DNA from: Streptomyces sp. NBC_00464
Lineage (GTDB): Bacteria > Actinomycetota > Actinomycetes > Streptomycetales > Streptomycetaceae
NCBI RefSeq assembly: GCF_036013915.1
Contig: NZ_CP107899.1
Coordinates: forward strand, 7,096,001-7,160,000
Length of the DNA stretch: 64,000 nucleotides
Reading direction: 5' to 3'
The position numbers were made by a program, and so were the translations under genes. Within the stretch, counting starts at the first letter, position 1; each line of letters opens with the position of its first letter. The notes under the pieces were generated by a model. That model worked only from the letters and a program-made list of their open reading frames with translations, did not search any database and was not told where the DNA came from. Shown here one piece after another: positions 14,823 to 58,784 of this stretch.

Positions 14823-16586
14823 ATGGAAGCTACTAGTGCAGCGGAACCACGGCGTCGGCAGGTACGGCACTCTCGCCGGCCGACGCTGGCCGCAAGTGCG
14901 GCAGGAGACCGATGGATCGTGTACGTGCGACTGAGTCGCGACACCGACGAGAGTACGTCCGTTGAGCGGCAATCGGAGGAGGGTCGTCGCTGGGTTGAAG
15001 ACGTCGCCCACGGCGTCGTTGTGGAGGTAGTCGTTGACACGGACGTATCGGGGGAGGTGTCGCCCTGGAACCGCAAGAACCTGGCGCAGTGGCTCGTCTC
15101 AGTCCCACCGAAACCCTTTGACGGCATGGTGGCACTGCGGGTCGACCGTTGGGCGCGTCGCGTGGTGTGGTTCTCCGGCCTGCTGGACTGGTGCAGGGAT
15201 AACGGCAAACGGATCAACACCGTGCGCATGAACATCGACCCGACCACCCGAGAAGGAAGGATGTTCGCGGGCATCGCCGCAATGTTCGCGGAAAACGAGC
15301 TGGAAGTCATCAAAGAGCGTGCCCAGGAGACGCGAGACACTCTCCGGCAAATGGGCCGCTGGCCCGGCGGAAGGGTTCCGTACGGCCGTGTCAAAACCCA
15401 TCTCGGAAAGGATCCGGAGACCGGCAAATCCCTGGGATGGAAGCTTGGCGACCACGCGCATCGGTGTGACGTCATCCGGCGAGCCGCAGACAACATCTTC
15501 GGGCTGAACGGGCATTCACCCACAACCCCGCACGCTGAGGTCCAGCGACTCAACCGCGAAGGGGAGCCGACCGAATCAGACTGCCGCCTCATTGACGCGG
15601 GCAAGGAGCCCAAGGGGACCAAATGGCTCCGTGAGACGTTGGTTCGTATTCTTCTCAACCCCACGACTGCCGGCGTCATCACGGACCACGAGGGGCGAAT
15701 CGTGCGCGGAGATGACGGGCTGCCTGTACTCGTCGCTCGGCCCATCCTCACCCTGGACGAGCAAGACCAACTTCGCGAACTGATCGAGTCGACGCCACAG
15801 AGCGAGACGCAGCGATCTCGTACTGACAAGCCGCGGAGGAAGAACTCCGGGCCCCTCTCGTACGCGCAGAACTGCTACGAGTGCGGCGGGAGCATGTACC
15901 GGGATGGCTCCACCGAGCCCGGCAGCGATGGCTACCGACGAGGGCTGAGGTATCGATGCCCTTCACGCTCCAAGGGACTTGACTGCCCAGGTGTGAACAT
16001 CGTCGCGGATCCCGTGGAGAAGTGGGCAGGGGAGGAGTTCCTCCGCCGACACGGACGCATGCGGCACGTCACGGAGGAGTACGTCCCAGGCATCAGCTAC
16101 GCCAACGACATCAAGGCCGCGGAAGACGCTCTGGACGCCCTGGAAGCTGACCGGCGAGCGGGTGTGTACACGGCGGAGGCGGCCGTTGCGCGCTTCCGAA
16201 CCCAACACGCCAGCCTGACGGAGCGGCTGGAGCGCCTGCGGAGTCTGCCGACGCGGGAGGCGACGACGGTGGTCAAGGACACCGGACGCACCATTGCCAC
16301 GGAGTGGCACAGGCACAACGAACTCATCCTCCGGTCAACGGCGGTCAACGAGGACGGAGAGTTCATCGTCGACGACCCGGAGGAGCGCAAAGCGCTGCGA
16401 GAGCGGGGCGAGAAAGGACACAACGAGCTGTATCGGCTCTTCCGTGTTCGCGTCGAAGTGAAGCGCGCTCCGGTCAAGGGGGCTAGGTCGTTCAGTCCTG
16501 GCCGGCTGGTGTTCACGTATCAGCCAGTGGACGACCCGGCAGCTGAGCAACTGGAGGCGATCTTGGACGAGGAAATGGCCGACTAA
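14823..16586 (+). CDS. int: Large serine integrase
   Basis: A 587-residue site-specific recombinase that joins phage attP to host attB. The resolvase/invertase catalytic domain begins near residue 31 (WIVYVRLSRDTDES), with Ser38 as nucleophile, and includes VALRVDRWARR with the conserved catalytic arginines. The recombinase domain follows (GRWPGGRVPYGR..), then a zinc ribbon (NCYECGGSMYRDG..RYRCPSRSKGLDCPG) and a coiled-coil region at about 430-480 (KAAEDALDALEADRR..). GGGAGGG lies 6 bp before ATG. It is the first prophage gene, reading away from attL. Integration needs only this protein; excision should also need the gp3-like factor at 56152. Confidence 0.96.
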   Translation: MEATSAAEPRRRQVRHSRRPTLAASAAGDRWIVYVRLSRDTDESTSVERQSEEGRRWVEDVAHGVVVEVVVDTDVSGEVSPWNRKNLAQWLVSVPPKPFDGMVALRVDRWARRVVWFSGLLDWCRDNGKRINTVRMNIDPTTREGRMFAGIAAMFAENELEVIKERAQETRDTLRQMGRWPGGRVPYGRVKTHLGKDPETGKSLGWKLGDHAHRCDVIRRAADNIFGLNGHSPTTPHAEVQRLNREGEPTESDCRLIDAGKEPKGTKWLRETLVRILLNPTTAGVITDHEGRIVRGDDGLPVLVARPILTLDEQDQLRELIESTPQSETQRSRTDKPRRKNSGPLSYAQNCYECGGSMYRDGSTEPGSDGYRRGLRYRCPSRSKGLDCPGVNIVADPVEKWAGEEFLRRHGRMRHVTEEYVPGISYANDIKAAEDALDALEADRRAGVYTAEAAVARFRTQHASLTERLERLRSLPTREATTVVKDTGRTIATEWHRHNELILRSTAVNEDGEFIVDDPEERKALRERGEKGHNELYRLFRVRVEVKRAPVKGARSFSPGRLVFTYQPVDDPAAEQLEAILDEEMAD

Positions 16587-16696
16587 AGATAACGGTAGGG
16601 TAACGATGAATCGGTGATCAAGCGGACGCGCTTGCGGCTCGTCGGCCCCTCGTCGCGCCTCCTCCGCCCCTCGTCGACGAGCCTCCGCCGCCTCAG

Positions 16697-16722
16697 TTAT
16701 CCACAGGCGCCTGTGGATAACT
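16697..16722. repeat. Perfect palindrome of two inverted DnaA-like boxes
   Basis: A 26-bp perfect palindrome with half-site GTTATCCACAGGC. Each half contains TTATCCACA, which is the classical DnaA box and one base from the usual Streptomyces form TTGTCCACA. It could bind host DnaA or act as a hairpin or operator. Only one palindrome is seen, so a full replication origin is not supported by this alone. Confidence 0.7.
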
Positions 16723-16772
16723 ACAGAGAGTGCCAAGAGGCGCTGAAACTGTAGCTCTGCGTAGCTAGACGA

Positions 16773-16899
16773 GCTGAACTCTGGCCAAAAAGCCAAACTA
16801 ACCCCTTATTTCACTTCTCTCTAGACGCGTTAAGGAGAGAAGGAAAATAGGGGGTTAGTTTGGCTTTTTGGCCTCGATCTGTCCGGGGGAGGAGGAGAC
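16773..16899. repeat. 127-bp direct repeat, copy 1, with long hairpin
   Basis: This sequence is identical base for base to 47224-47350. Inside it, 16783-16821 and 16835-16873 form a 39-bp-arm inverted repeat: the outer 23 bp (beginning GGCCAAAAAGCC) pair perfectly, and the inner part has one G-U pair and two adjacent mismatches. The loop is 13 nt (TAGACGCGTTAAG). The repeat ends in GGGGGAGGAGGAGAC. No protein is encoded. A GTGAAAC element starts 13 bp after the repeat. Confidence 0.92.
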
Positions 16900-16912
16900 C
16901 ATGATCATTCCC

Positions 16913-16934
16913 GTGAAACGCTTCCGCCATAACA
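16913..16934 (+). promoter_or_regulatory. Shortened copy of the phage promoter motif
   Basis: GTGAAAC is followed after 8 bp by CATAAC, where the other three copies have 18 bp between the same elements. The difference is exactly 10 bp, about one helical turn. It lies upstream of the tRNA cluster, right after the 127-bp repeat as at 47369. With so short a spacer it may be inactive. Confidence 0.45.
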
Positions 16935-17069
16935 ACAGTAGAAGGGAAGAACGGCGGCGCCGGCGAATGGCGCGGCGCCCGCTTCCCCCTGACGGCCGGC
17001 AGCGTTCCCGTGCTCCCCGCACTCTCCTCCGGGTAGAGCGTGGTTGAGCGCTGCTGGCCGTGTTTGTCT

Positions 17070-17147
17070 TCCTCCGTAGCTCAGTAGCAGAGCACCGGGC
17101 CGGCCTGGAACCAACGGTTGTCGCGGGTGCAAGTCCCGCCGGGGGAA
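17070..17147 (+). tRNA. tRNA-like gene with abnormal anticodon arm (identity unclear)
   Basis: The acceptor stem (TCCTCCG / CGGGGGA), D-arm (GCTC..GAGC) and T-arm (GCGGG TGCAAGT CCCGC) are complete and pair well. The stretch between D and T arms (17094-17122) is six bases longer than normal and no 5-bp anticodon stem with a 7-base loop can be drawn: only CCG/CGG at the ends pairs. An alternative fold has a mini-hairpin AACC-AAC-GGTT as a variable arm. It may be an altered or decayed tRNA. CCA is not encoded. Confidence 0.55.
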
Positions 17148-17175
17148 CTGGACGAGGCGGAGCGATGCGCACGCT

Positions 17176-17262
17176 TGCGCGGTAGCTCAGTCAGGAAGAG
17201 CAACCCTCCATACCTTCGGGTCACTGGAGGGCCGGTCACGGGTTCGAATCCCGTCCGCGACG
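17176..17262 (+). tRNA. tRNA-like gene with hairpin inserted in the anticodon loop
   Basis: The T-arm (ACGGG TTCGAAT CCCGT) and D-arm (GCTC..GAGC) are canonical. The acceptor pairs over five bases (CGCGG/CCGCG) with two mismatches at its end. The anticodon stem CCCTCC/GGAGGG is strong, but encloses 16 bases containing ACC-TTCG-GGT, a stable UUCG hairpin, instead of a 7-base loop. Removing nine bases would restore a normal loop, so a small insertion is the simplest description. The anticodon is therefore uncertain. Confidence 0.55.
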
Positions 17263-17350
17263 CCTCGTCTTCGACGTCATGCACTCCGGGACCTCTCGGA
17301 GCCAGCCTCTGACGTCTATCACTCACCCTGCCCCTTGTGGGCAGGGTTTT

Positions 17351-17423
17351 GCTTCCGTAGCTCAGTGGTTAGAGCGTCCGCCTGTCGAGCGGAGGGGCGT
17401 CGGTTCGAATCCGATCGGGAGCG
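17351..17423 (+). tRNA. tRNA-Asp (GTC)
   Basis: Complete cloverleaf: acceptor GCTTCCG/CGGGAGC, anticodon arm TCCGC-CTGTCGA-GCGGA with anticodon GTC, T-arm GTCGG TTCGAAT CCGAT. CCA is not encoded, as in the other genes of the cluster. Confidence 0.93.
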
Positions 17424-17543
17424 CGTCGGGGTCGCCAGTGCCGCAGTTGATCCTGCGGGGAGTGAGGGCGACGAAGCGGGAGGGTACCCCGCTGCTGTCC
17501 ACGAGGTGCCGGCAACGGGGCTCAAATGCCGTGGACAGCTCAA

Positions 17544-17618
17544 GGTCTCGTAGCTCAGTCTGGATAGAGCACCGGATTACGGATCCGGGTGTCGGAGGTT
17601 CGAATCCTTCCGGGACCA
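17544..17618 (+). tRNA. tRNA-Arg (ACG)
   Basis: Complete cloverleaf: acceptor GGTCTCG/CGGGACC, anticodon arm CCGGA-TTACGGA-TCCGG with anticodon ACG, which would be edited to ICG by the host deaminase and read CGU, CGC and CGA. The T-arm is GGAGG TTCGAAT CCTTC. Confidence 0.93.
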
Positions 17619-17628
17619 CACAGTGCAC

Positions 17629-17700
17629 GCCTAGCTAGCTCAGCGGTAGAGCGCCGGTTTCATACGCCGGAGGTCGGTGGTTCGAGTCCATCGCTTGGCA
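17629..17700 (+). tRNA. tRNA-Met (CAT)
   Basis: Anticodon arm CCGGT-TTCATAC-GCCGG with anticodon CAT; T-arm GGTGG TTCGAGT CCATC. The acceptor GCCTAGC/GCTTGGC has one U-U mismatch at the fourth pair. The first acceptor pair is G-C, so it is not a typical initiator; an Ile-CAU (lysidine) identity cannot be ruled out. Confidence 0.85.
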
Positions 17701-17774
17701 CTGACGGACGGTCGTAGGCGAGGGGAAACCATCGCACCCGGAGAACAGTCCGGTGACACTGCGGCCGACGTCGA

Positions 17775-17845
17775 TCGGATGTCGCCTAGTGGTATGGCAG
17801 CGGTCTCCAAAGCCGCCTACGGGGGTTCGATTCCCTCCATCCGGG
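17775..17845 (+). tRNA. tRNA-Trp (CCA)
   Basis: Anticodon arm GCGGT-CTCCAAA-GCCGC with anticodon CCA; T-arm GGGGG TTCGATT CCCTC; acceptor TCGGATG/CATCCGG starting with a U-G wobble. The D-stem is three bp (GCC/GGC). Confidence 0.88.
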
Positions 17846-17904
17846 CAAGGCCCCATAACCGTCCCTGTAGCGCTCCGGCGCCGATCAGACGGCTGGGGCC
17901 CCAA

Positions 17905-17984
17905 GCGTTGAGCCCTGGGAGGCAAGCGGGCCTGTAAAGCCTGCGCTGGAGACGGCTGGCGTGGTTCGATTCCACGGCGACGCA
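17905..17984 (+). tRNA. tRNA-Tyr (GTA), long variable arm
   Basis: Anticodon arm GCGGGC-CTGTAAA-GCCTGC with anticodon GTA, followed by a long variable arm as in class II bacterial tRNA-Tyr. T-arm CGTGG TTCGATT CCACG; acceptor GCGTTGA/GCGACGC with one mismatch at the inner end. Confidence 0.88.
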
Positions 17985-18058
17985 CAAGGACGTCAGGTGA
18001 CGCTACTCGCGAGGGTTCACCACTGGACGCTGACCGGTCCAGCATCTGACGTCCCCAA

Positions 18059-18131
18059 GCCCCTGTAGCTCAGCCGGAAGAGCGCCTCTCTCGTAAAGAG
18101 GATGTCGCGGGTTCGACTCCTGCCAGGGGCT
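18059..18131 (+). tRNA. tRNA-Thr (CGT)
   Basis: Acceptor GCCCCTG/CAGGGGC, anticodon arm CCTCT-CTCGTAA-AGAGG with anticodon CGT, T-arm GCGGG TTCGACT CCTGC. All stems pair. Confidence 0.93.
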
Positions 18132-18134
18132 CTA

Positions 18135-18209
18135 CGGGATATGGCGCAGCTTGGTTAGCGCATCCGCTTTGGGAGCGGAGGGCCGCAGGTTCGAATCCTG
18201 CTATCCCGA
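18135..18209 (+). tRNA. tRNA-Pro (TGG)
   Basis: Acceptor CGGGATA/TATCCCG, anticodon arm TCCGC-TTTGGGA-GCGGA with anticodon TGG, T-arm GCAGG TTCGAAT CCTGC. It follows tRNA-Thr by 3 bp, so the two must be processed from one transcript. Confidence 0.93.
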
Positions 18210-18217
18210 CACACACG

Positions 18218-18256
18218 CAGGCCCGCCAGGGAGGAGCGATCCCCTGAGCGGGCCTG
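18218..18256. terminator. Bidirectional terminator after the tRNA cluster
   Basis: The stem CAGGCCCGC / GCGGGCCTG (9 bp) with an inner AGGG/CCCT pair stands between the last rightward tRNA and the end of the leftward small gene, serving both. Confidence 0.7.
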
Positions 18257-18263
18257 AGCTACG

Positions 18264-18506
18264 TCACGGCCCGACGCGCCTGAACGTCAGCATGACCCGC
18301 CCGCCGGCCGGATGAGGCTCGCTGTACTCCAGCTTCCACCCCGCCATTTCGATGCGGGTGACGAGCCGCTCCGACTTGTGGATGCCACCGACGGCAACGC
18401 GGTTGTGAACCGCCAGCCCCCGCTTGTGCGCCCTCAGGGCTGCAGGATCGGGCGTGAGCGGCGCAGGCACGCCGGCTATGTGCTTCCCGAAGAGCTTGAA
18501 CTCCAC
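18264..18506 (-). CDS. Small phage protein of unknown function, the only leftward phage gene
   Basis: An 80-residue basic protein (VEFKLFGKHIAG..) with no recognised motif. GTG 18506 is chosen because AAAGGGGGA stands upstream; the frame is open further but through low-complexity Arg/Ser sequence. It is convergent with the tRNA cluster and divergent from the endonuclease VII gene, so it has its own promoter. A leftward gene in a rightward prophage suggests expression in the lysogen or a regulatory role (inference). Confidence 0.65.
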   Translation of the reverse strand: MEFKLFGKHIAGVPAPLTPDPAALRAHKRGLAVHNRVAVGGIHKSERLVTRIEMAGWKLEYSEPHPAGGRVMLTFRRVGP

Positions 18507-18618
18507 GACGTCCCCCTTTGAGCGGCCCCCTGCCGCGGATGACGACCAGCGTACGCGCGAAGACGACTTGAGGAAGCGCGACAACCACATAAGCGCCTTC
18601 GGCTGATCCCCGGAGGAA

Positions 18619-18654
18619 GAGAGCCCCTGCCGTCCTCAAGCGGTGGGGGCTCTC
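18619..18654 (+). terminator. Hairpin ahead of the endonuclease VII gene
   Basis: Stem GAGAGCCCC / GGGGCTCTC (9 bp, loop 18) ends 20 bp before ATG 18675. It could stop read-through from the left or act as a leader structure in the endonuclease mRNA. Confidence 0.5.
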
Positions 18655-18674
18655 GCACGTCTTGAGGACTGACG

Positions 18675-19415
18675 ATGGCTGAGAAGATTTGCGCGTTCGA
18701 CGAGTGCGGACCTGCACGGAAGCTGACTCGCGGCCTGTGTAGCGCTCACTATGAGCAGCAGCGACTCGGTAAGCCGTTAACACCGCGACGGCATAAGCGT
18801 GCTGACCTAAGCCCCGTACTCCCGTGCGCGTTCCCGGACTGCGGGAAGCCTACGGTTTCGCGCAGCTGGTGCTGCGGCCACTACGACCAGTGGCGTGCCG
18901 GCGGTGAAATGCGAGCCCTGCGGGAGCGTAGAGCGTCGGGATCGGCTTTGATCCGGGATGACGCGGGCCGGAAACAGTGCTCGACGTGCGCTGAGTGGCT
19001 TTACACCGATGCGTACGTGGCGGACACCAGCGCACTGGATGGGCTAGCTGGGCAGTGCAAAGCCTGTGTGCGTGATTCCCGGCTGACGGCCAGGTTCGGT
19101 GTTGACGCGGCCCGGTATGACACGTTGCTGTCGAATCAGGGCGGAGTCTGCGCCATATGCAAGCGGCCCGATCCCGCAGGGAGGGCGCTGGCGGTAGATC
19201 ACGACCACACGTGCTGCCCCGCTGTTGGGGTGTCGTGCGGTAAGTGCGTCCGCGGACTTCTGTGCTGGCCATGCAACGTAGGAATTGGGCACCTTCGTGA
19301 CGATGTGAGCGTGCTTGAATCCGCTATCCATTACTTGACGAGGAGTCATGGCCACGCAGTGGAGCAACTCCCACAGGAAGGGCCGTCTGCCGAAGAACTG
19401 GGCGTCGCTGCGTAG
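18675..19415 (+). CDS. Recombination endonuclease VII-type HNH nuclease
   Basis: A 246-residue protein. Residues 130-225 carry the endonuclease VII pattern: GVCAICKRPD, then VDHDHTCC..CGKCVRGLLCWPCNVGIG with the His-metal catalytic site and zinc-binding Cys. The N-terminal half has several CxxC and CGHY pairs (CAFDECGPARKLTRGLCSAHY, CAFPDCGKP..CCGHY) forming two further zinc-finger repeats. T4 endonuclease VII resolves branched DNA before packaging; the place next to the terminase block suits that. It overlaps the next HNH gene by 68 bp. Confidence 0.88.
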   Translation: MAEKICAFDECGPARKLTRGLCSAHYEQQRLGKPLTPRRHKRADLSPVLPCAFPDCGKPTVSRSWCCGHYDQWRAGGEMRALRERRASGSALIRDDAGRKQCSTCAEWLYTDAYVADTSALDGLAGQCKACVRDSRLTARFGVDAARYDTLLSNQGGVCAICKRPDPAGRALAVDHDHTCCPAVGVSCGKCVRGLLCWPCNVGIGHLRDDVSVLESAIHYLTRSHGHAVEQLPQEGPSAEELGVAA

Positions 19416-21224: not shown

Positions 21225-21685
21225 TGGCCGGCCGTGGACCCGCCCCAAAGGACCCAACCAAGCGACGCCGGCGCAACGCCGCAGACCCGGAGACGGTCAT
21301 CACCGCCGACGACGAGATTCGCGGCCCTGAGCTGCCGGACGGCGTCCTAGGCGCCGACAAGGACGGTAACGACTACGAGTGGCATCCCATGACCGTCGCT
21401 TGGTGGCAGACCTGGCGTGAGTCACCGCAGGCATCCACGTTCACCGCCACCGACTGGGCTTTCCTCTTGGACACGGCACTCATGCACACCTCAATGTGGT
21501 CCAAGGGTCAGTGGACGCTTGCCGCCGAAGTGCGCCTGAGAGCCGCCAAGTTCGGCGCTACGCCGGAGGACAGGGCCCGTCTGAAGCTCAAGGTCGACGA
21601 CCCCGTGAGCGCCCCGCAGAGGCCCGTACAGGCTCCTCAGAACGTCTCTGACATCAACTCACGACGAGCGAGGCTGACCGGCTAA
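21224..21685 (+). CDS. terS: Terminase small subunit
   Basis: A 153-residue DNA-recognition subunit of the packaging motor. It starts with the typical basic GRGPAPKDPTKRRRRN segment and has a central helical region (TWRESPQASTFTATDW..LLDTALMHTSMWSKG) seen in actinophage small terminases. It lies immediately before terL and should bind the cos or pac site. Confidence 0.82.
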   Translation: MAGRGPAPKDPTKRRRRNAADPETVITADDEIRGPELPDGVLGADKDGNDYEWHPMTVAWWQTWRESPQASTFTATDWAFLLDTALMHTSMWSKGQWTLAAEVRLRAAKFGATPEDRARLKLKVDDPVSAPQRPVQAPQNVSDINSRRARLTG

Positions 21686-21705
21686 CCAAACGAGAGGGGG
21701 CGTCG

Positions 21706-23424
21706 ATGCCGCACGTCACGGTACGCGCCCCCGGACACGACCGCTCCCGCTCTCTGGGCTGGCTCGCGGTCGCGTGGATGGAGTACTTCGTTGTTCATGG
21801 CCCTGGCGACGTCCAGGGCATGCCGGTCTCCCACGGCGACGAGTACACAGGCTTTGTCGTCGACTGCTACGCACTGGGCGAGGGCGGTAAAGACGACGGC
21901 CGCATGATGTACGACAGTGCCTTCTTCTCCCGCCCGAAGGGCTGCGACAAGAGCGGACTGGGCGCGCGGCTCGGCCTCTTCGAGGCTCTCGGACCGTGCC
22001 GGTTCTACGGTTGGGCAGAGGGCGGGGAGGTCTACGAGGACCCGTGGGGTTTGGGCTTCCGCTACACCTACGAGGCCGGCGAGCCGATGGGCCGCCCGGT
22101 CACCGTGCCGTACCTCCGGATCATGGCCACTGAGGAGGGCCAGACCGGAAATGTGTACGACACGATTCATTTCAACCTGACCGACGACGCCGCGCGGCTG
22201 AGCCACGTTCCGAACGTTGACCCGGGCTTGACGAAGATCAACCTTCCTGACGGCGGAGAGATCACGCCGTCAACCGCCTCCAGCTCCTCGAAGGACGGCG
22301 GCAAGGAGACGTGGGTCTGCTTCGATGAGACTCACCTCTACAACACCCCCGAACTCCGCCGCATGTACGCCACGGTGACGCGTAACCTCCGCAAGCGGAA
22401 GAAGATCGCTCAGACGTGGTACCTCGAAACGACCACGATGTTCGCCCCCGGGCAGGACTCCGTCGCAGAGCGTACGTACGAAGAGGCTGAAGCGATCCGC
22501 GAGGGGCGCAAGAAGCGTGGCCGCGCGAGGTTGATGTACGACCACCGTTACGGCGTCGTCAAGGATCTGAAGGATGAGCAGCAGCTCCGCGCGGCCCTCC
22601 GCGACGCATATGGCGACGCCATGGAGTGGATCGACGAAGACACGCTGGTCGATGATTTCTACGACCTCCGTAACGACTCCGCGGACGGTAAGCGGTACTT
22701 CCTGAACTCCCGGACGTCCTCCTCCGATGCGTGGATGGATCCGGACGCTTGGGAGCTATGCCGCCGCCCGGAGCAGATCGACGCTGGCGAACTAGTGACC
22801 CTCGGCTTCGACGGCTCCATCAACGACGACGCAACCGCGCTTGTCGCGTGCCGCGTATCTGACGGCCACCTGCAATTGCTCGGCTGCTGGGAGAAGCCGG
22901 AAGGCCCCGAGGGCGAAGGCTGGCAAGTCGACCGTGAATCGGTGGACAGCGCCGTTGCGCGCGCCTTCGACCGCTACGAGGTCGCGGGTTTCTACTGTGA
23001 CCCGCCCAAGTGGCAGGACTACGTGGATAAGTGGACCGCGGAGCATGGCGAAGGGCTCCAGATCAGCGCCACACAGGCTCGCCCGCTGGAGTGGTGGACG
23101 ACGCGCCCGACGGCCATGGAACACGCCCTGGACCGCTTCGTGGAGGCCGTCGACGACAAGGCACTCTCCTACGCCGGCACCGACAAGGCGGACGACGAAG
23201 AGCCCTACTCGAAGTTGGGTGCCACGCTCACCCGCCACGTGCTGAACGCCAAGCGGCGCCCGATGGGCCGCAACCACATCGGCATTGGCAAGGAACACCC
23301 CAAGTCACCGAAGAAGATCGACGCCGCCATGAGCGCCACGCTCGCCTACGAGTGCCGCGCGGACGCCGTCGCAGCAGGAATCACCAAGCGTAAGAAGCGG
23401 ACTGGCCGCCTTCGCGCATTCTGA
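21706..23424 (+). CDS. terL: Terminase large subunit (ATPase-nuclease)
   Basis: A 572-residue packaging motor. The N-terminal ATPase has a deviant Walker A around residues 74-85 (FFSRPKGCDKSG) and Walker B near 203 (WVCFDETHLY). The C-terminal RNase H-like nuclease starts near 365 (LGFDGSINDDAT, first catalytic Asp) and continues through FYCDPPKWQDY. It pumps DNA into the prohead and cuts concatemers. Followed by the portal gene after 13 bp. Confidence 0.92.
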   Translation: MPHVTVRAPGHDRSRSLGWLAVAWMEYFVVHGPGDVQGMPVSHGDEYTGFVVDCYALGEGGKDDGRMMYDSAFFSRPKGCDKSGLGARLGLFEALGPCRFYGWAEGGEVYEDPWGLGFRYTYEAGEPMGRPVTVPYLRIMATEEGQTGNVYDTIHFNLTDDAARLSHVPNVDPGLTKINLPDGGEITPSTASSSSKDGGKETWVCFDETHLYNTPELRRMYATVTRNLRKRKKIAQTWYLETTTMFAPGQDSVAERTYEEAEAIREGRKKRGRARLMYDHRYGVVKDLKDEQQLRAALRDAYGDAMEWIDEDTLVDDFYDLRNDSADGKRYFLNSRTSSSDAWMDPDAWELCRRPEQIDAGELVTLGFDGSINDDATALVACRVSDGHLQLLGCWEKPEGPEGEGWQVDRESVDSAVARAFDRYEVAGFYCDPPKWQDYVDKWTAEHGEGLQISATQARPLEWWTTRPTAMEHALDRFVEAVDDKALSYAGTDKADDEEPYSKLGATLTRHVLNAKRRPMGRNHIGIGKEHPKSPKKIDAAMSATLAYECRADAVAAGITKRKKRTGRLRAF

Positions 23425-26360: not shown

Positions 26361-26759
26361 ATGAATCTCGGACTCATCACTGAGAGCTTCTCTCAGGACC
26401 GGCGTGACTGGCTGGCGGGTGCGCACGGTACGGACATCGCTCCGTCCGTGACGCTGGACGTCAGCAAGTTCACCTCCGGCACCCACTACCCGGACGGCTA
26501 CATCAAGAGCGGCATCCCACTGGGCAAGATCACGACCGGCGGGAAGTACGGCCCCTACGACGACGCTGCGAGCGACGGACGTCAGACCTGCGTCGGGTTT
26601 CTCTACACGGGCGTGGAGGTCGTGACCAAGCGCGGCCAGGTGCTCACGTCTGCTGTCGCATCCATGCTCGTCCACTGCGCGGTCAAGGAGTCCAAGCTCC
26701 CCGTCGCTGTCGACACCGCCGGCAAGACCGACCTTGGCGCTCGCGTCATCTTCGTCTGA
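26361..26759 (+). CDS. Head decoration protein (lambda gpD-like)
   Basis: A 132-residue beta-rich protein placed just before the major capsid gene. VTLDVSKFTSGTHYPDGYIKSGIPLGKI and ARVIFV at the end follow the pattern of trimeric capsid-stabilising proteins. It is inferred to sit on the outer capsid surface after expansion. Confidence 0.8.
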   Translation: MNLGLITESFSQDRRDWLAGAHGTDIAPSVTLDVSKFTSGTHYPDGYIKSGIPLGKITTGGKYGPYDDAASDGRQTCVGFLYTGVEVVTKRGQVLTSAVASMLVHCAVKESKLPVAVDTAGKTDLGARVIFV

Positions 26760-30578: not shown

Positions 30579-30979
30579 AAGCGGACTTGGCGTTCCGCGG
30601 CATTGACCTCCTGGACGTCTACCGCGGACGCCTGTCGCTGCGCCGGCTGCGGGTGCTGATTCAGCATCTGCCGCCAGAGAGCGCGACGAAGACCGCCCTT
30701 CGCAACGCTTCACCTGAGCCCGATCCATCGGCCCCTGCGCCGGAGTTCCGCCCGGACAAGGCGGCATGGAGTAGCGAAATGATGCTCCTGGCGGACATCA
30801 AAGATCAACTGGTGCTGGCTCGATCCGTGGCCATCGCAGCTGCAGGCGGAACCCCGCCCGACTTCACACCCACACCCCGACCGGGGGTCGCCCCAGCGTC
30901 TGCGTCCCCGAAGCGGATGACTGACGAGATGCGCCGCGCGCTTGACCCGCGGCTGAGAAACCAGCCGAAGGAGGCGTGA
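30533..30979 (+). CDS. Tail assembly chaperone, frameshift extension (gpT part of gpGT)
   Basis: This frame is expected to be made only as a -1 extension of the 30258 product, giving a fusion of about 240 residues. The frame is open from the slippery site, and the first ATG inside it (30587) has no clear ribosome-binding site. The region holds FRGIDLLDVYRGRLSLRRLRVLIQHLPP and a C-terminal EMRRALDPRL segment. It ends by overlapping the tape measure start. Confidence 0.85.
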   Translation, partial: VLWTCEVLAEHAEALEADLAFRGIDLLDVYRGRLSLRRLRVLIQHLPPESATKTALRNASPEPDPSAPAPEFRPDKAAWSSEMMLLADIKDQLVLARSVAIAAAGGTPPDFTPTPRPGVAPASASPKRMTDEMRRALDPRLRNQPKEA

Positions 30980-30981
30980 GG

Positions 30982-33900
30982 ATGCCGGATCTTGACATTG
31001 TGGGCGGTGCGGCGGTCGACGTCGTACCGGTCATCCCCCAGTTCCACACCAAGCTCAAAGCCCTCGTCCTCCCCATCGCTGACAAGGTCGGCGAAGAGGC
31101 CGGCAAGCGCATGGGGGAGGCGATCTCGAAGAACATCGTGATTGCCATCCCGGACGCCATCAATCAGGGCGGGAAGCTGGGCGTCCGCGCGGCTGGCAAG
31201 CAGGGTGACGACGCGGGTGGAGCGTTCGCGCGCTCCATCCGCCGCAAGCTCCAGGCTGCGTTCAAGGCCATGCCGAAGCTGGACATCAGGCTGGGCGACA
31301 CGGGTGTTGATGCCGAACTCGCCCGCATCCGGGCCAAGCTGGAGCAGCTGAGTAGCAAACGGATCGGCATCGACGTCAGCGCGGAGGCCGCGGAAGCGGA
31401 GATCACGCGCCTGGAGGAGAAGCTCCGGGAGCTGGGCGCACAGCATCCGAACGTCGCTGTTCGCGCCGACACCGCCACTGCCCGCGCCGCACTTGCGGAG
31501 ATCCGGGCGGAGATCGCGGCAATCGGCGGTCGAAAGACCGTCACGGTAGAAGTCGACGGCGCGTTTGGTGCCAAGCTCCGCGCAGTCGTGGCGGAGGCGC
31601 AGGCGTCCATCCCAGACATCAACGTCGACGCCGACACCTCGCCGGCACGCGCTGAGATTCAGGGTCTGCGGGCTCGGCTGGAGGCGCTCTCAGACGCTCG
31701 CGTTGGAATCGACATCGACGCCGGGGAAGCTCTGGCGGAGATCACCGCGATCCAAACGCGTCTCGGAGTCCTCAGCATGCAGCGCACTGACATTGACGTC
31801 AGTGTGGACGCTGCTGCCGCCATTGCACAGCTCCAGGCGCTCCGCGCGATGGCGGACGATACCAAGATCTTCCACATCAAGGCACTGGCGGACACCTCCG
31901 GGGCGTCTAGTGCCCTGATGTCTCTCGGCATTCAGATTGTGGCGCTGGCCGCAATTCCTGTAGCTCCCGCGCTTCTCGCTGGTCTCGGCTCCATCGCTGC
32001 GATGGCGACGGCTGCGGGTGCTGGCGTGGGCGCTCTCGCCCTGGCGGCCATTCCCGCCATCAAGGGTGTGACCACCGCCATCACGGCGAAGAAGGCCGCG
32101 GAGGACGAGGCCAACAAGGCGACGGACAACGGCGCCAAGCGTGCAGTCCAGGCAACACAGCGCGCCCTGCAAATGGCTGGCGCTCAGGCGACCCTGTCGG
32201 CCGCACACCGCAACGCAGCACGCGCCGCGGAGCAGGCTAGCCGACAGATAGCCGACGCCGAACGGGCTGTAGGTGACGCCGTGCAGCGTGCCGCGGATCA
32301 GCGTCGGCAGTCTGCGGACACCATCGCTCGCGCGCAGGACGCTCTGACTGCTGCCCACCGAAAGGTGCGTGACGCACAGGCATCTCTGACCGACGCCAAC
32401 GTCAGCGCGCGCCAGGCGGAGCAGGATCTCACGCAGGCCCGTCGCGACGCCGCACAGCAGCTCAAGGACTTGCAGGACCGGCTGACCGACGGCGCCCTGG
32501 ACCAGCGGGAAGCAACTCTCCGCGTCCAGCAGGCGCAGCAGGATCTGAACGAGACCCTGGCGTCGGCTGAGGTCGGCACGGCCACTCAGCTCCAGGTTGA
32601 GGCGGCGCAGCTGGCCTACGACCGGGCGAAGCAGCAGGCCAGGGAGCAGAAGCAGGACTACGCCGACCTGCAGAAGGACGCAGCGAAGCAGACCAAAGCC
32701 GGCGTCGAAGGATCCGACCTCGTCACCGCCGCACACAAGCGCGTGGCCGATGCTCAGAAGGGCGTCAAGGATCAGATCGAGTCGGTAGCCGACGCACAGA
32801 AGGACGTCCGCGACCAGGCGATGGCCGTAGCCGACGCTCAGTCGGACGCCGCCCGCGCGCAGAGTCGCGCAGCTCAGGACGTCGTCGACGCTCAGCGGGG
32901 TGTCTCTGATGCTATGACGGCGTCGGCCGACGCTCAGGTGTCCGCGGCTGAGAGCATCGCCTCCGCGGAACGGGGAGTTGAGTCCGCTCGTCTCTCCGGC
33001 ATCGACACCACCGCCTCCGCGATCACGAAGACTGATGAGTACAGCGAGGCACTCGCGAAGCTGAGCGCCCCACAGCGGGATCTCTTCGACGCCATCGCCG
33101 GTCCGAAGGGCCTGAAGCAGGCATTCGACGACTGGCAGAAGTCTCTACAGCCGGAAGTCCTCCCGCTCTTCACCAACGGCGTGAACGGTATGAAGAACTC
33201 CCTTCCTGGTCTGACACCGCTTGTGATCGGGGCGGCAGCCGGAATTCAGACGCTGATGGAGAAGGCATCGGCACAGATGAAGACGCCGTTTTGGGAAGGC
33301 TTCAAGGCTGACCTGAAAGAGCGCGTCGAACCGGCAGTAGTCGGCTTCGGAACGGCCTTCGGGAACGTCATCAAGGGCATTGCGGGTGTGATCGACGCCT
33401 TCCTTCCGCACATGGACGGAATCGTCACGAAGTCGGACAGCATCACGGGCCGATTCGCCAAGTGGGGGACGAGCCTGAAGGGCAGTCCCGACTTTGAGAA
33501 GTTCCTGGCGTACGTCAAGGAGACCTCCCCCGGACTGGCGTCCTTTATCGGTGACGTCCTGCGTTCTGTGCTGGATCTAGCTAAGGCCATTGCGCCGCTG
33601 TCTCAGACCATGTTCGCCGTAATGAAGCCTATTCTCGACGGAATTTCATGGATAGCCGTCCACTGTCCCGAGGCCGTACAGGCGTTGTGGCTGATGTGGA
33701 CCGCCGTAAAGGCCATCAAATTGATGATGGTCGCCTTCGGCGTCGTCATGGTGGCGTACAAGTCCGCCGTCATCCTGATAACTCTGCTCACGCAGGGGTG
33801 GGCCGCTGCGATGTGGGAGGCCAACCTCGCGTTTGAGGCCAACCCCATTGTCGCGATCGTGACGATTATCCTCGTCGCGATTGGGCTGTTGGTGGCCGGC

Positions 33901-36177
33901 GTCATCTACGCCTATAAGCACTGGGATTGGTTCCGCATAGCGGTCGACACCACGTTCAGCGCCATCGCAACTGCTGCAACCTGGCTGTGGAGCACCATCC
34001 TGCAGCCCACGTTCTCCGCCATCTGGACGGCTCTCAAGGCGGTTGGTGACGTGGCGATGTGGATCTGGACGAACGGCATCAAGCCGGCGTTCGACTTCAT
34101 CGCGGAGGCAACACAGCTGCTGTTCACCGCACTGGTCACAGCTCTTTTGCTCCCCGCCTACCTGGCGTTCCAGGTACTGGGAGGAATCGCTAAGTGGCTG
34201 TGGGAGAAGGCGATCAAGCCCGCCTTCGACTCAATCGGCGAGGCCGCAACGTGGCTGTGGGATGAGGCCATCAGTCCCGCGTTCGGCTTCATCGGCGAAA
34301 AGGCCAAGTGGCTGTACGACAAGGCCATCAAGCCTGCCATGAAGGACGCCGGGGACAAGATCGACGCTTTCGGCGAAGTGGTCGACTGGCTGTGGAAGAA
34401 GGTCATCAAGCCCGTCTTCGACTTCATCGGGGAAAAGGCTGTCTGGCTGTACGACAAGGCCATTAAGCCTCCGATGGACAACATCAAGGCTGCCATGAAA
34501 CTCGTTGCGCTGGCGTTCAAGAGCGCCAAGGACGACATCAAAACGCAGTGGGACAAACTGAAGGAAATCGCTAAGGCACCCGTCAAGTTCATCATCGATC
34601 ACGTCTACAACAAGGGCATCGTCCCGTTGTGGAACGGCGTCGCTGGGATCACGGGCGCGGGCAAGTTGCATAAGATGGACCTGAAGGGGTTCCACACTGG
34701 CGGCATCATGTCCGGCTATTCCCCGGGCCGTGACGATCGCGTCATCGCGGTTGGTGGCGGTGAGGCCGTCATGCGCCCCGAGTGGACGCGTGCAGTTGGC
34801 GCAGACAAGATCAATCAGTGGAATGCTGCTGCCCGTTCAGGCGGCATCAGTGGCGTTCAGCGTGCGATCTCCGACGGAATGCCGGCGTTCAAGGATGGCG
34901 GAGTTGTCGGCTGGGTGAAGAACAAGGCTGGCAAGGTCGGGGACTTCGTCTCTGACGTCGCCGACTATGCCAATCCTGGGAAACTGTTTGACAAGGCGAA
35001 GGGCTTCATCACGGGCCAGCTCAAGGCGCTTCTAACGAATCCTTGGGCGAAGTCCGTTGCCAAGATGCCCGGTCAGATGCTCAACAGCCTGAAGGCCAAG
35101 GCGCTGAGCCTCTTCGACTTCGGAGGCGGTGGCGGTGGCGGAGGCGGCTCCTGGATCAAGCCGGTAAACGCTCCCTACGGGACGCGATTCGGCAAGGCCG
35201 GCCTGATGTGGTCTAGCGGCCGGCACACCGGGCTCGACTTCCCGGCAGCCGTCGGAACAGCGATCAAGGCCGTTGCTGACGGCACCGTGTCGCAGTCGAC
35301 GAGTGGTGGCCCTTACGGCATCCACGGCATGATCAGCCACGGTGGCAACCTGTCGTCGATGTATGCGCACATGAGCAAGATCCTCATGCGTGCGGGCCAG
35401 CACGTGAAGCAGGGTCAGGTGATCGGCCGTGTGGGTGCGACCGGCAACGTCACTGGTCCACACCTCCACCTGGAAGCACGCCTGGGCGGCCACACTGTCG
35501 ATCCAATGCCCTACCTCACCAGTAGCGGTCCGGGCGGCAACGGCGTTTCCGGTGTGCAGCGTTGGCGCGGAGTGGTCAATCAGGCTCTGCGTCTGACGGG
35601 CAACCCCTCGTCGTACGCGAACGTAACGCTGGCGCGCATGAACCAGGAGTCGGGCGGCAACCCTCGCGCAGTCAACAACTGGGACAGCAACGCCCGCGCC
35701 GGCTACCCGTCGACGGGACTCATGCAGGTCATCCGGCCGACGTTCCAGCAGTACGCGGGATCCATGAGCAAGAAGGGGCCGTTCCTCAACGGAGTCTCCG
35801 TCGACCCCCTGGCGAACGTCTACTCCTCCATGCGCTACGCGAAGGCTGCTTACGGCAACCTGGGCAAGGCGTACGGGAAGATCGGCGGCTACGCCAACGG
35901 CGGGTTCCCGCCCGTTGGTGAGTGGTCGGTCGTCGGCGAGAACGGTCCGGAGCTGGCGTTCGGCCTCACTCCGACGCAGGTGATCAGCAACCACGACAGC
36001 CGGAATCTTTTCCGTGAGGCTGCCAGCCAGAAGGGCGGAGCGGTCACGGTGCCCAACATCACCGTGGAGTCGCATACCTACCTGGACGGCCGCGAAGTGG
36101 GCGGCATCATCGACACCCGCATTGAGCTGTACGACGCCGACACAGGCCGTGCGCTCCAGGCGGGTCGCGTTCTCTAA
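30982..36177 (+). CDS. Tape measure protein with M23 peptidase and lytic transglycosylase domains
   Basis: A 1731-residue protein that sets tail length. ATG 30982 is chosen because GAAGGAGG stands 8 bp upstream; GTG 30976 is too close to it. Residues 1-300 contain alpha-helical repeats, 380-680 are long coiled coil rich in Ala/Gln/Asp/Arg, and 870-1000 contain hydrophobic spans. About 1020-1180 hold tandem WLWxxAIKPAFDFIGE-type repeats. An M23 zinc peptidase follows (HTGLDF at about 1415, HLHLEARLGG at about 1494), then an SLT transglycosylase (MNQESGGNP near 1555, STGLMQVIRPTFQQY). The enzymes should open peptidoglycan at infection. Confidence 0.93.
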   Translation: MPDLDIVGGAAVDVVPVIPQFHTKLKALVLPIADKVGEEAGKRMGEAISKNIVIAIPDAINQGGKLGVRAAGKQGDDAGGAFARSIRRKLQAAFKAMPKLDIRLGDTGVDAELARIRAKLEQLSSKRIGIDVSAEAAEAEITRLEEKLRELGAQHPNVAVRADTATARAALAEIRAEIAAIGGRKTVTVEVDGAFGAKLRAVVAEAQASIPDINVDADTSPARAEIQGLRARLEALSDARVGIDIDAGEALAEITAIQTRLGVLSMQRTDIDVSVDAAAAIAQLQALRAMADDTKIFHIKALADTSGASSALMSLGIQIVALAAIPVAPALLAGLGSIAAMATAAGAGVGALALAAIPAIKGVTTAITAKKAAEDEANKATDNGAKRAVQATQRALQMAGAQATLSAAHRNAARAAEQASRQIADAERAVGDAVQRAADQRRQSADTIARAQDALTAAHRKVRDAQASLTDANVSARQAEQDLTQARRDAAQQLKDLQDRLTDGALDQREATLRVQQAQQDLNETLASAEVGTATQLQVEAAQLAYDRAKQQAREQKQDYADLQKDAAKQTKAGVEGSDLVTAAHKRVADAQKGVKDQIESVADAQKDVRDQAMAVADAQSDAARAQSRAAQDVVDAQRGVSDAMTASADAQVSAAESIASAERGVESARLSGIDTTASAITKTDEYSEALAKLSAPQRDLFDAIAGPKGLKQAFDDWQKSLQPEVLPLFTNGVNGMKNSLPGLTPLVIGAAAGIQTLMEKASAQMKTPFWEGFKADLKERVEPAVVGFGTAFGNVIKGIAGVIDAFLPHMDGIVTKSDSITGRFAKWGTSLKGSPDFEKFLAYVKETSPGLASFIGDVLRSVLDLAKAIAPLSQTMFAVMKPILDGISWIAVHCPEAVQALWLMWTAVKAIKLMMVAFGVVMVAYKSAVILITLLTQGWAAAMWEANLAFEANPIVAIVTIILVAIGLLVAGVIYAYKHWDWFRIAVDTTFSAIATAATWLWSTILQPTFSAIWTALKAVGDVAMWIWTNGIKPAFDFIAEATQLLFTALVTALLLPAYLAFQVLGGIAKWLWEKAIKPAFDSIGEAATWLWDEAISPAFGFIGEKAKWLYDKAIKPAMKDAGDKIDAFGEVVDWLWKKVIKPVFDFIGEKAVWLYDKAIKPPMDNIKAAMKLVALAFKSAKDDIKTQWDKLKEIAKAPVKFIIDHVYNKGIVPLWNGVAGITGAGKLHKMDLKGFHTGGIMSGYSPGRDDRVIAVGGGEAVMRPEWTRAVGADKINQWNAAARSGGISGVQRAISDGMPAFKDGGVVGWVKNKAGKVGDFVSDVADYANPGKLFDKAKGFITGQLKALLTNPWAKSVAKMPGQMLNSLKAKALSLFDFGGGGGGGGGSWIKPVNAPYGTRFGKAGLMWSSGRHTGLDFPAAVGTAIKAVADGTVSQSTSGGPYGIHGMISHGGNLSSMYAHMSKILMRAGQHVKQGQVIGRVGATGNVTGPHLHLEARLGGHTVDPMPYLTSSGPGGNGVSGVQRWRGVVNQALRLTGNPSSYANVTLARMNQESGGNPRAVNNWDSNARAGYPSTGLMQVIRPTFQQYAGSMSKKGPFLNGVSVDPLANVYSSMRYAKAAYGNLGKAYGKIGGYANGGFPPVGEWSVVGENGPELAFGLTPTQVISNHDSRNLFREAASQKGGAVTVPNITVESHTYLDGREVGGIIDTRIELYDADTGRALQAGRVL

Positions 36178-40024: not shown

Positions 40025-40633
40025 ATGCCCAAGCCCGATAGCTACGGTCAGAACGTTCAGTACCCGGTACTGTCTGACGCGCCCAACATCGAAACCGCGC
40101 TGCAGGCACTGGTAAACGGAGTCGTTCCGTTGACGGTCATGCGGTTCCCCAACGCCAACGCACGCGCTGCGACGTTGACCGGAAACTACAAACCCGTTCC
40201 AGGGATGATTACCTATCTGGCCGCTGAGGATCGTTGGGAGCGGAGAGACGGCGACAACGTTTGGCGCCCGTTCAGCCCCGGTGTATGGAAGCCGATTGCC
40301 TATACGACGGGATACACGTCGCAATCAGGTTCGCCCGCGTACCGAATCATCAACAACGAGGTGCAGTTGCGCGGAACAATTCGGCGAACGGCAGCAAGCA
40401 CGGACCTCGTGACGAATGTGGACGTTCATTTCGCGACGCTTCCTTCGGAGGCGCGTCCGATCGGCGGGTATCGCTACTTCCTGGCAGCGGCAAACTTCGT
40501 CAACACATCGGGAACGAGCTACTTCTCCGGCCGCATCGGCATTGCTCCTGACGGCAGCATGATCTACGTCATGCCGTTGAACTCGAAGAGCGAATGGCTC
40601 TCCCTGGACGGCATCCGCTTCTCCATCGACTAA
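40025..40633 (+). CDS. Putative tail fibre / tail-tip protein
   Basis: A 202-residue protein. The first 80 residues (NIETALQALVNGVVPLTVMRFPNANARAATL..ITYLAAEDRWERRDG) look like a fibre attachment module, and the C-terminal 110 residues are beta-rich with many Ser, Thr and aromatic residues, suited to receptor binding. No enzymatic motif. A rho-independent terminator follows. Confidence 0.7.
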   Translation: MPKPDSYGQNVQYPVLSDAPNIETALQALVNGVVPLTVMRFPNANARAATLTGNYKPVPGMITYLAAEDRWERRDGDNVWRPFSPGVWKPIAYTTGYTSQSGSPAYRIINNEVQLRGTIRRTAASTDLVTNVDVHFATLPSEARPIGGYRYFLAAANFVNTSGTSYFSGRIGIAPDGSMIYVMPLNSKSEWLSLDGIRFSID

Positions 40634-46370: not shown

Positions 46371-46461
46371 CGAAAGGGGGGTGGGGTATGTATGGTCCGT
46401 GTCAGTGCTCTACGGTACTGTGTGGCCGCCCCCACCCCTGCTGATCTGAGGTTGACGGATA

Positions 46462-47196
46462 ATGACTGCCGGCGAGATGGAGATCCCTAGCGCACGGGAC
46501 GTGGTCCCCTCATTGCAGCTGGACGACATCGCGCACGAGTCTGAACAGACTCTTGTGGCCCGTGGTGTGGCCTATGCCCGGGAGTACGATCAGATCCAGG
46601 GCAAGGCCACGACCCTGGTGAAGAACCTGGCGGTCGTCATCCTGGCTCTGCGGCGGAAGCATGACGACATGCGGGGGACGTCGCACGACTATCGGGAGGC
46701 CGTGGCGGAGATGTACCGCACGGCAAACCTGCCGACGGACAGCAACGCCAGCTTGCAGAGCAACGTCCGATATCACGTGGGCAACGCCTTGCGGCGCCAT
46801 CTGACCACGCGGGAGCTGGAACAGCTCGACCTCAAGACCACGTCGCCCCTGGAGCGGTTCCAGGACAGGCGGAAGACGGACTCCGCAATCGTGCGTGCAG
46901 TGAAGGCCGTTGATACCGCAGCAGCCTCCACCCCTCCGCCGGCAAAGAGTGCAGTCAAGGGGAAGGCGTCGGCATCCACTGCCGCTGCACCCGTGCCCGC
47001 GCCCGTGAAGGCCACCGCCGATCACCTCAGGCTCGTACAGGTGGTGACAAACGTACTGGGGCAGATCAGTACAGACGTGGTGGACCGTCACATGACCGCC
47101 GGACAGCGGGCACGGATGGACGAGGAGTTGGCTGAGGTGCAACGCAGAGTGACGGAATTGCGCCGCCACACGCGAAAGCCCAAGTCAGGCGCCTGA
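46462..47196 (+). CDS. Unidentified phage protein, candidate regulator
   Basis: A 244-residue protein not recognised by motif. The first 140 residues are helical (LAVVILALRRKHDDMRG, EAVAEMYRTANLPTDSN, SNVRYHVGNALRRHLTTREL), a Pro/Ala/Lys linker spans 155-185, and a helical end (ARMDEELAEVQRRVTELRRHTR) could dimerise. The gap before it contains GGGGTGGGG / CCCCACCCC inverted arms around a CAGT..ACTG pair. It sits alone just before the second 127-bp repeat and promoter, so a regulator of that promoter is one idea; there is no direct evidence. Confidence 0.5.
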   Translation: MTAGEMEIPSARDVVPSLQLDDIAHESEQTLVARGVAYAREYDQIQGKATTLVKNLAVVILALRRKHDDMRGTSHDYREAVAEMYRTANLPTDSNASLQSNVRYHVGNALRRHLTTRELEQLDLKTTSPLERFQDRRKTDSAIVRAVKAVDTAAASTPPPAKSAVKGKASASTAAAPVPAPVKATADHLRLVQVVTNVLGQISTDVVDRHMTAGQRARMDEELAEVQRRVTELRRHTRKPKSGA

Positions 47197-47223
47197 TCGT
47201 CGCCCGCATCCTCCGCCTCCCCT

Positions 47224-47350
47224 GCTGAACTCTGGCCAAAAAGCCAAACTAACCCCTTATTTCACTTCTCTCTAGACGCGTTAAGGAGAGAAGGAAAATA
47301 GGGGGTTAGTTTGGCTTTTTGGCCTCGATCTGTCCGGGGGAGGAGGAGAC
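47224..47350. repeat. 127-bp direct repeat, copy 2, with long hairpin
   Basis: Identical to 16773-16899, including the 39-bp-arm inverted repeat and 13-nt loop. It lies after the unidentified gene at 46462, and the GTGAAAC promoter motif follows after 18 bp. Flanking sequences of the two copies are unrelated upstream. Confidence 0.92.
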
Positions 47351-47368
47351 AAAGATCTTGAAAGTGCC

Positions 47369-47400
47369 GTGAAACATTCCCGCTCCACCCCGCCATAACT
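47369..47400 (+). promoter_or_regulatory. Phage promoter motif, copy B
   Basis: GTGAAAC, 18 bp, CATAACT, with spacer ending CACCCCGC as in the other copies. It heads the long run of overlapping genes from the RecB-like nuclease onward, 37 bp before ATG 47438. Confidence 0.75.
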
Positions 47401-47437
47401 AAGGAGACAGCAAGCAACGCGGCGATGTGGAGGCCAG

Positions 47438-48241
47438 ATGGCAGGGGTAAGCACGATCAAGCGCGGCGGAAGCCGCTTCTACGTGGATCCGAGTGACTCG
47501 CGCATCAAGGTGCCCGGCGTGACGAGCGTCGTGGGGATGGAGCCCAAGCCGTTCCTGGTTTTCTGGGCGGCGAACGAAGCGGCCGACGCTGCGGTTGCCA
47601 ACTGGGACATCGTCAGCAAGCTCGTGGAGCGAGACCCTGCCGGCGCGAAGGACTACCTGAAGAACGCCCATCGTCGGAAGTCGAAGGCGGCAAGCGACCT
47701 CGGGTCCTCCGCCCACACCTACTTCGAGAAGCTGGCGCGGGGGGAGGACGTCAACCTGCGCCACGTGCACGCCGACGTACAGCCTCACGTGAGGCACTTC
47801 CGGGAGTTCCTGGACGAGATCCAGCCTGAGTTCATCCACCTGGAGGAGACCGTCTGGGACGACGACATTGCCGTGGCCGGCTCGTTCGACGCCATCGCGA
47901 AGATCGACGGTGAGACGGTGATCATTGACTGGAAGACCTCCAAGGCGGTCTACGAGTCGGTAGCTCTCCAGCTCAGCGCCTATCGCTACGCCACCCGCAT
48001 CATCCTGGCGGAGAGCGGGGAGTCCATCCCGATGCCGGAGATCACGGGCGGCGCCGTGCTCCACGTCCGCCCGGAGGCTTGGGCGTTCCACCCCATCGAG
48101 TGCGGCCGTGAGGTCCATGAGACGTTCAAGGCGCTGCGCGCGGTGTTCGAGTGGGACCGTGAGGGCAAGAAGGGTGTCGTCGGCAAGCCGATCGCGTCCG
48201 GCGGTGTGCGTCTGACGGGAACGGAGCGGAGGGCGGCATGA
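47438..48241 (+). CDS. RecB/Cas4-like PD-(D/E)XK exonuclease
   Basis: A 267-residue nuclease. The catalytic core is AGSFDAIAKIDGETVIIDWKTSK (Asp, then D-x-K), followed by the QxxxY motif in LQLSAYRYAT; an upstream HTYFEKL gives the conserved His. It likely degrades or processes DNA ends for phage recombination or replication. First gene of the promoter-B operon; its stop overlaps the next ATG. Confidence 0.85.
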   Translation: MAGVSTIKRGGSRFYVDPSDSRIKVPGVTSVVGMEPKPFLVFWAANEAADAAVANWDIVSKLVERDPAGAKDYLKNAHRRKSKAASDLGSSAHTYFEKLARGEDVNLRHVHADVQPHVRHFREFLDEIQPEFIHLEETVWDDDIAVAGSFDAIAKIDGETVIIDWKTSKAVYESVALQLSAYRYATRIILAESGESIPMPEITGGAVLHVRPEAWAFHPIECGREVHETFKALRAVFEWDREGKKGVVGKPIASGGVRLTGTERRAA

Positions 48242-58593: not shown

Positions 58594-58784
58594 CCGCCAT
58601 CCACACCATCGACGACGCCAACGCCCCCGCGCTGGGCGACATCCGCACGGCCGGCAAGGACGACGTGATCCGCGTCCGTCGGTCGGCCGTGCAGCGCAAG
58701 GACTTCGCGAAGTACTGGGAGGCCATCGGAGTCGCGCTGAAGCGTGGCGCCGTGGTCGACGTGAGGAACCGGGAGGAGAACTGA
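58590..58784 (+). CDS. Small phage protein, unknown function
   Basis: A 64-residue protein (MTAIHTIDDANAPALGD..) with a basic centre (VIRVRRSAVQRKDFAKYW). Coupled on both sides; no motif recognised. Confidence 0.57.
   Translation: MTAIHTIDDANAPALGDIRTAGKDDVIRVRRSAVQRKDFAKYWEAIGVALKRGAVVDVRNREEN

Follow-up and report, generated by a model that had tools for sequence, protein, structure and literature searches.

Paired long hairpins at two seams of Samy-like Streptomyces phages: sequence signs of concerted evolution and a probable role as transcription stop signals

The paired element and its surroundings

The window, by which we mean the whole stretch of 64,000 nucleotides analysed here, contains a Samy-like prophage with a serine integrase, tRNAs, terminase, kinase and exonuclease, and its structural genes resemble those of Streptomyces phage Samy. 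The accessible text of PMC11302927 groups Samy with phiC31; the accessible part of PMC8388888 holds nothing on the prophage. Two intergenic positions carry the same non-coding element (Table 1). At the T site it lies between the integrase gene and the tRNAs with the late genes, and at the R site between a repressor-like gene and the exonuclease with the early genes. Samy gene 32, which shares its matches in relatives with the repressor-like gene, is annotated as a putative immunity repressor.

Table 1. Features at the two sites of the window prophage
Feature	Position in window	Strand	Basis or remark
T copy, 127-bp element	16773..16899	+	sequence comparison
R copy, 127-bp element	47224..47350	+	sequence comparison
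Hairpin of T copy, 91 nt	16783..16873	+	inverted-repeat search and RNA fold
Hairpin of R copy, 91 nt	47234..47324	+	inverted-repeat search
Serine integrase gene, upstream of T copy	14823..16586	+	
tRNA cluster, downstream of T copy	17178..18210	+	
Repressor-like gene, upstream of R copy	46462..47196	+	matches relatives in the stretches that Samy gene 32 also matches
Exonuclease gene, downstream of R copy	47438..48241	+	
Late-side promoter-like block, GTGAAAC-N8-CATAAC	16913..16933	+	after T hairpin
Early-side promoter-like block, GTGAAAC-N18-CATAAC	47369..47399	+	after R hairpin

The preliminary description had reported two identical 127-bp copies, each with a near-perfect 91-nt inverted repeat, and both statements were confirmed. 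The exact shared run measures 127 bp, with differing bases adjoining it on both sides, and the next-longest exact direct repeat in the window is only 22 bp. In the host genome, a single 8.47-Mb contig carries both copies. A search of the 8.96-Mb host genome revealed no further copies, all other matches being 15-22 bp long with E >= 3.4. The inverted repeat consists of two 39-nt arms that are 92% complementary and separated by 13 nt, and the identical run exceeds the hairpin by 10 bp upstream and 26 bp downstream. At the R site, the hairpin starts 37 nt past the stop codon of the repressor-like gene and ends 44 nt short of GTGAAAC. A suggested role as a repressor stoperator is contradicted by the half-site CAAACTAACCCC, which is confined to the two copies within the window even when two mismatches are allowed. 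Only tRNAs exceeded the gathering score of any Rfam family in the window, with no match for the hairpin element; the first tRNA after the T hairpin (17178-17259) was found by Rfam and missed by ARAGORN. Internal direct repeats with 57- and 135-nt spacing occur at 34034-34476, within a 1733-aa open frame (30976-36177).

The preliminary description had placed a GTGAAAC promoter element 13-18 bp after each copy. The distances hold, at 13 and 18 bp, but the two promoter-like blocks are not alike, because the gap from GTGAAAC to CATAAC measures 8 bp after the T copy and 18 bp after the R copy and at two further sites. We examined this spacing at 28 R and 28 T sites of related phages. The start-to-start distance of the two boxes was 22-25 bp in 23 of 24 called R sites, the one short case (G413) stemming from the search pattern, and 13-15 bp in 19 of 23 called T sites. 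The late-side block is thus shorter by about one helical turn, and the short spacing is typical of the T site in relatives. The promoter-like element is real and exists in two versions of differing spacing, and the blocks would presumably function as promoters. An earlier promoter pattern with another spacer gave five matches, which is chance level, one of them at a block discussed here. The two further GTGAAAC-N18-CATAAC sites lie at 43908, directly preceding a dNMP kinase gene, and at 56058. In Samy, GTCACAT blocks precede the kinase, exonuclease, recombination directionality factor and sigma-factor genes.

The stretch upstream of the T hairpin includes, at 16695-16722, a perfect palindrome of two head-to-head 9-mers (TTATCCACA) that resemble the DnaA box. 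Of 28 phages, 19 have a DnaA-like 9-mer before their T hairpin, the distance being nearly the same in most, and none of the 28 R sites has one. The palindrome is possibly a replication or DnaA-controlled site.

Conservation of the pair and concerted evolution

A survey of related phages, as the preliminary description had proposed, showed that Samy and many relatives carry homologous pairs, placed at these two sites. In Samy, one element matches at 26406-26519, between the putative repressor and the exonuclease, and the second at 58654-58759, between the integrase and the tRNAs. A covariance model of the hairpin matched 18 of 19 phage and viral records (phiC31 being the one without a match), with two places in 10 of the 19. 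It also matched all 20 genomes that had been picked for earlier matches (two places in 11, one in nine) and 16 of 17 further records, 12 of them with two clear places; the second place of G431 is partial, and G397, among the 12, was already counted in an earlier set. Combined, two clear places occur in 32 of 55 distinct records, a few of these record handles being the same phage twice, and no record has more than two. The two places lie ~26-32 kb apart. Several records with a single place are fragments, but not G044, a single-contig genome, or G417, which extends ~60 kb past its copy. Two virus records have one place only (G405 and G406), yet genomes that share their R sequence (G414 and G410) show both copies.

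A pattern scan yielded 22 stretches in viral contigs and 28 in genome contigs. One viral-contig match (L026), which lacks a phage-protein match, looks like chance, and 13 of the 28 genome-contig matches, from many phyla, were dropped as chance matches to a palindromic pattern; the other 15 are Streptomyces. BLAST with the window copy found matches in 14 of 392 Streptomyces genomes, including the window's own.

For a check that depends less on the hairpin, viral contigs were searched with an alignment of 13 exonucleases, and the hairpin was then sought, with E up to 0.1, at the best 80 of 393 loci. Among these 80, all 27 loci with an exonuclease identity of at least 64% carry the R hairpin, 13 of the 27 contigs having been missed by the pattern scan. 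Below 64% identity, it is present at three of 53 loci, one of them weak (L227, E 0.012). Since the exonuclease queries came from hairpin-bearing phages, this check reduces the bias and does not remove it. At nine of the 53 less similar loci, with 53-59% exonuclease identity (L223, L229, L230, L232-L234, L236, L237 and L239), a different GC-rich hairpin was seen by eye at the R place.

These findings bear on the origin of the pair. The preliminary description had concluded from the identity of the copies that selection, recent duplication or gene conversion was at work. Identity in the window would also fit a small mobile element or an assembly error. Recent duplication as the origin is ruled out by the same-site pairs in Samy and many relatives, which likewise speak against the other two; moreover, the element has no target-site duplication at its ends and no scattered copies in the genome, so that it does not qualify as a MITE. 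Taken together, a recent duplication, mobile element or assembly error is extremely improbable. Judged from the relatives, the pair has long existed at these fixed positions, and its identity in the window alone is recent. Recent identity is supported by G418, whose exonuclease is the most similar among the relatives: its hairpin and promoter stretches align with the window at only 58-79%, despite 91-99% identity over the exonuclease gene. This viral contig is a mosaic relative (L277 and L278 against window 45900-48800 and 15500-18300): its exonuclease and parts of its tRNA region are 91-100% identical to the window, and its integrase and repressor regions far less so.

Gene conversion gains support from the comparison across phages. 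We measured distances among 28 phages with both copies, after dropping G395, G399, G400 and G419 as close relatives of others. The mean distance between T and R copies is 0.237 within a phage versus 0.379 between phages, with 0.384 among T copies and 0.369 among R copies, and none of 20000 permutations reached the observed within-phage likeness. For 27 of the 56 copies, the partner in the same phage is closer than every opposite-site copy of other phages, and for 22 of the 56 it is the nearest of all copies. The flanks behave differently. In the first 18 phages, the two upstream flanks of one phage differ by 0.732, compared with 0.532 between T flanks and 0.528 between R flanks; for downstream flanks the values are 0.685 within a phage and 0.611 and 0.547 by site. 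Site-specific flanks beside hairpins that are alike within each phage are, on this sequence comparison, the mark of concerted evolution, which is complete in the window. Identity of the copies is not required, because they have drifted apart in several phages, such as G320 (0.51), G429 (0.44) and G403.

We infer that the copies are kept alike by gene conversion or exchange and not by parallel selection. Co-selection for one sequence is conceivable as an alternative; against it weighs that the identity continues past the hairpin, by 10 bp on the upstream side and by 26 bp on the downstream side. As to the direction of conversion in the window, R and T copies both occur among the best matches to the window core. 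Recombination between the copies is directly testable. Deletion by crossing over between them, which had also been raised, is geometrically possible but not supported.

Folding and the proposed role as stop signals

The RNA fold of the 127-mer reaches -70.4 kcal/mol (z = -9.6), which none of 200 shuffles equals, and as DNA the element also folds far better than shuffled sequence. Across relatives, 51 of 56 elements have a fold z below -4 and thus the stable predicted stem-loop that an intrinsic terminator would require. The five others are the T copies of G320, G155 and G403 and both copies of G433, which are near-identical yet fold poorly (z 0.1 and -3.4). In G433 (L297 and L298), a different, weakly folding sequence occupies both sites, homogenised although the hairpin has decayed.

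Covariation was assessed by counting pairs from fixed anchors, which could be set in 36 of 47 elements. This count replaced a MAFFT alignment that misaligned the inner stem, so that RNAalifold kept only 14 pairs. Outside the search pattern, offset 3 pairs in 26 of 36 elements versus 16.1 in a re-paired control, offset 5 in 25 versus 17.9 and offset 12 in 27 versus 18.1, and the covarying positions show many pair types. Several outer offsets equal the control, and at fixed offsets pairing at the inner positions 8-10 falls below it, which we put down to length differences of the inner stem.

The 56 elements also show a modest bias towards the sense strand, although the p values given here ignore relatedness and serve only as guides. 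The sense RNA folds better in 41 elements versus 15 (p = 0.0007), G.T pairs outnumber A.C pairs by 118 to 84 (p = 0.02), and the T-run is longer at the sense 3' side in 20 versus seven, with 29 ties (p = 0.02). Twenty later-added elements from 10 phages point in the same direction, not significantly (sense fold 12 versus 8, G.T 45 versus A.C 33, T-run 6 versus 4). The G.T excess could alternatively stem from a mutational strand bias. The T-run of the window is TTTTT, placed inside the outer stem, and relatives mostly have 3-5 T. When 16000-19000 was scanned for terminators and promoters, the element was not called; its loop of 13 exceeds the scan's loop limit of 8.

Both hairpins lie in the place of an intrinsic terminator, after the integrase or repressor-like gene and before a promoter-like block, with the transcription units taken from gene order. 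We consider it likely that the paired hairpins are terminator-insulators that separate the early and late operons and are kept alike by recombination. This option of the preliminary description fits best, given the fold, the compensatory pairs, the position and the modest sense-strand bias; the strand bias did not hold at significance in the second set. Each copy would form one long stem-loop acting as terminator and insulator at a seam of the phage genome, where RNA polymerase would stop. Transcripts running through the integrase gene would end at the T copy, before the tRNAs and late genes; repressor-side and late transcripts would end at the R copy, short of the early lytic genes. A promoter-like block follows each hairpin. 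Being two near-identical stretches in one genome, the copies could recombine, either by gene conversion inside that genome or by exchange with another, and so stay alike. From sequence and position, the hairpins probably act as transcription stop signals before the early and late start signals. The pair would then mark the probable boundary of early versus late transcription, and the hairpins are natural terminator candidates for Streptomyces.

Stems so long and perfect are unusual for terminators. This would suit another RNA role, in which the long stem is cut by RNase III or protects the integrase and repressor transcripts at their 3' ends, and the sense-strand bias fits any RNA role. However, a promoter-like block directly follows both hairpins, and the GC-rich hairpins at the R place of other phages fit a stop signal better; an RNA role other than termination is therefore improbable. 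Because different GC-rich hairpins occupy this place in some related phages, we suggest that a stop signal at the R place is what matters. Samy and its relatives keep both hairpin sites. According to the accessible text of PMC11302927, the Samy repressor gene is highly expressed in all conditions tested, and >38% of Samy genes fall in the lowest expression class under non-inducing conditions.

The phiC31-type pair and comparison with known systems

Phage phiC31 is the source of a widely used integrase. In phiC31, phiBT1, TG1, Lilbooboo, Samora, Euratis, Vash and Shawty, two similar elements lie at the same two sites (in phiC31 about 21640-21790 and 40410-40600). Within a genome, the two copies share 74-88% identity over 105-133 bp. 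Their mean distance is 0.229 within versus 0.307 between phages (2 of 40320 permutations, the observed order included), the Euratis distance being inflated by an automatic cut of its R element that is too long. The phiC31-type elements thus resemble the window pair in site, pairing and concerted evolution within the genome, but differ in their unrelated sequence, their GTGAC repeats and a mostly weak RNA fold. The hairpin covariance model R1 gave no match in phiC31 (AJ006589), and no phiC31-type BLAST match was found upstream of the exonuclease in L197-L222. Thirteen of the 16 phiC31-type elements have z values of -2.4 to +0.9, and three of -3.9 to -4.5. Other GC-rich hairpins were seen by eye upstream of the pair at these seams. 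Because of the mostly weak fold and these other hairpins, the pairing in phiC31 may not concern termination. The phiC31 T element, about 40416-40547, ends ~17 bases before the promoter annotated 'late lytic' (X91149.1 174-194).

Concerted evolution of an unrelated, weakly folding sequence in the phiC31 family raises the question of whether the element acts as DNA, as a matched pair for recombination, module exchange, protein binding or replication. The near-identical G433 copies with their decayed fold point the same way, as do the jumps in similarity near both hairpins between the window and the G418 mosaic, the DnaA-like boxes that 19 of 28 phages have before their T element and an endonuclease VII-like protein encoded by the prophage. 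On the other hand, the R sites lack DnaA-like boxes (0 of 28), the G418 jump lies beside the hairpin and not within it, the copies of several phages have diverged, and compensatory changes and a sense-strand bias accompany the conserved pairing of the stem. We therefore regard a DNA-level site, with termination as a by-product, as rather unlikely. In a broader version, for which we see only a small chance, Samy-like and phiC31-like phages would share a plan in which the seam pair is re-homogenised repeatedly in each lineage, whatever its sequence. The matching itself would then be the function, through DNA-level pairing or recombination by which the early and late halves are exchanged or coordinated, with termination again incidental.

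Terminators beside phage promoters are already known. New, as far as the literature searched goes, is a long-hairpin pair at two seams that evolves in concert across many lineages: we found no earlier description of one in the open-access literature, a scope outside which most phiC31 work falls. Together, the hairpin pair in many temperate-phage lineages and the unrelated sequence in the phiC31 family present a clear case of a non-coding pair in concerted evolution. Ingham, Hunter and Smith reportedly described in 1995 Rho-independent terminators without poly-U tails in the phiC31 early region, between genes and phage promoters. These share with the window hairpins a stem-loop between stop codon and phage promoter, an apparently weak or absent U-tail and a related phage; the window hairpins differ in their 91-nt length, their pairing at two operon seams and their concerted evolution.

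Two mycobacteriophage systems offer further comparison, as far as the accessible parts of the sources describe them. Cluster M phages have conserved repeats CR3/CR4 with upstream stem-loops (PMC7953290), likewise intergenic actinophage stem-loops ahead of a repeated element; these repeats lie between many genes of one region, whereas the window pair lies at the ends of the late half. Cluster O phages combine 17-bp inverted repeats with predicted terminators (PMC4351075) and so resemble the window as an actinophage sequence that has both inverted repeats in more than one copy and putative stem-loop terminators, but their repeats are 34 short copies spread genome-wide and their predicted terminator stems measure 12-18 bp.
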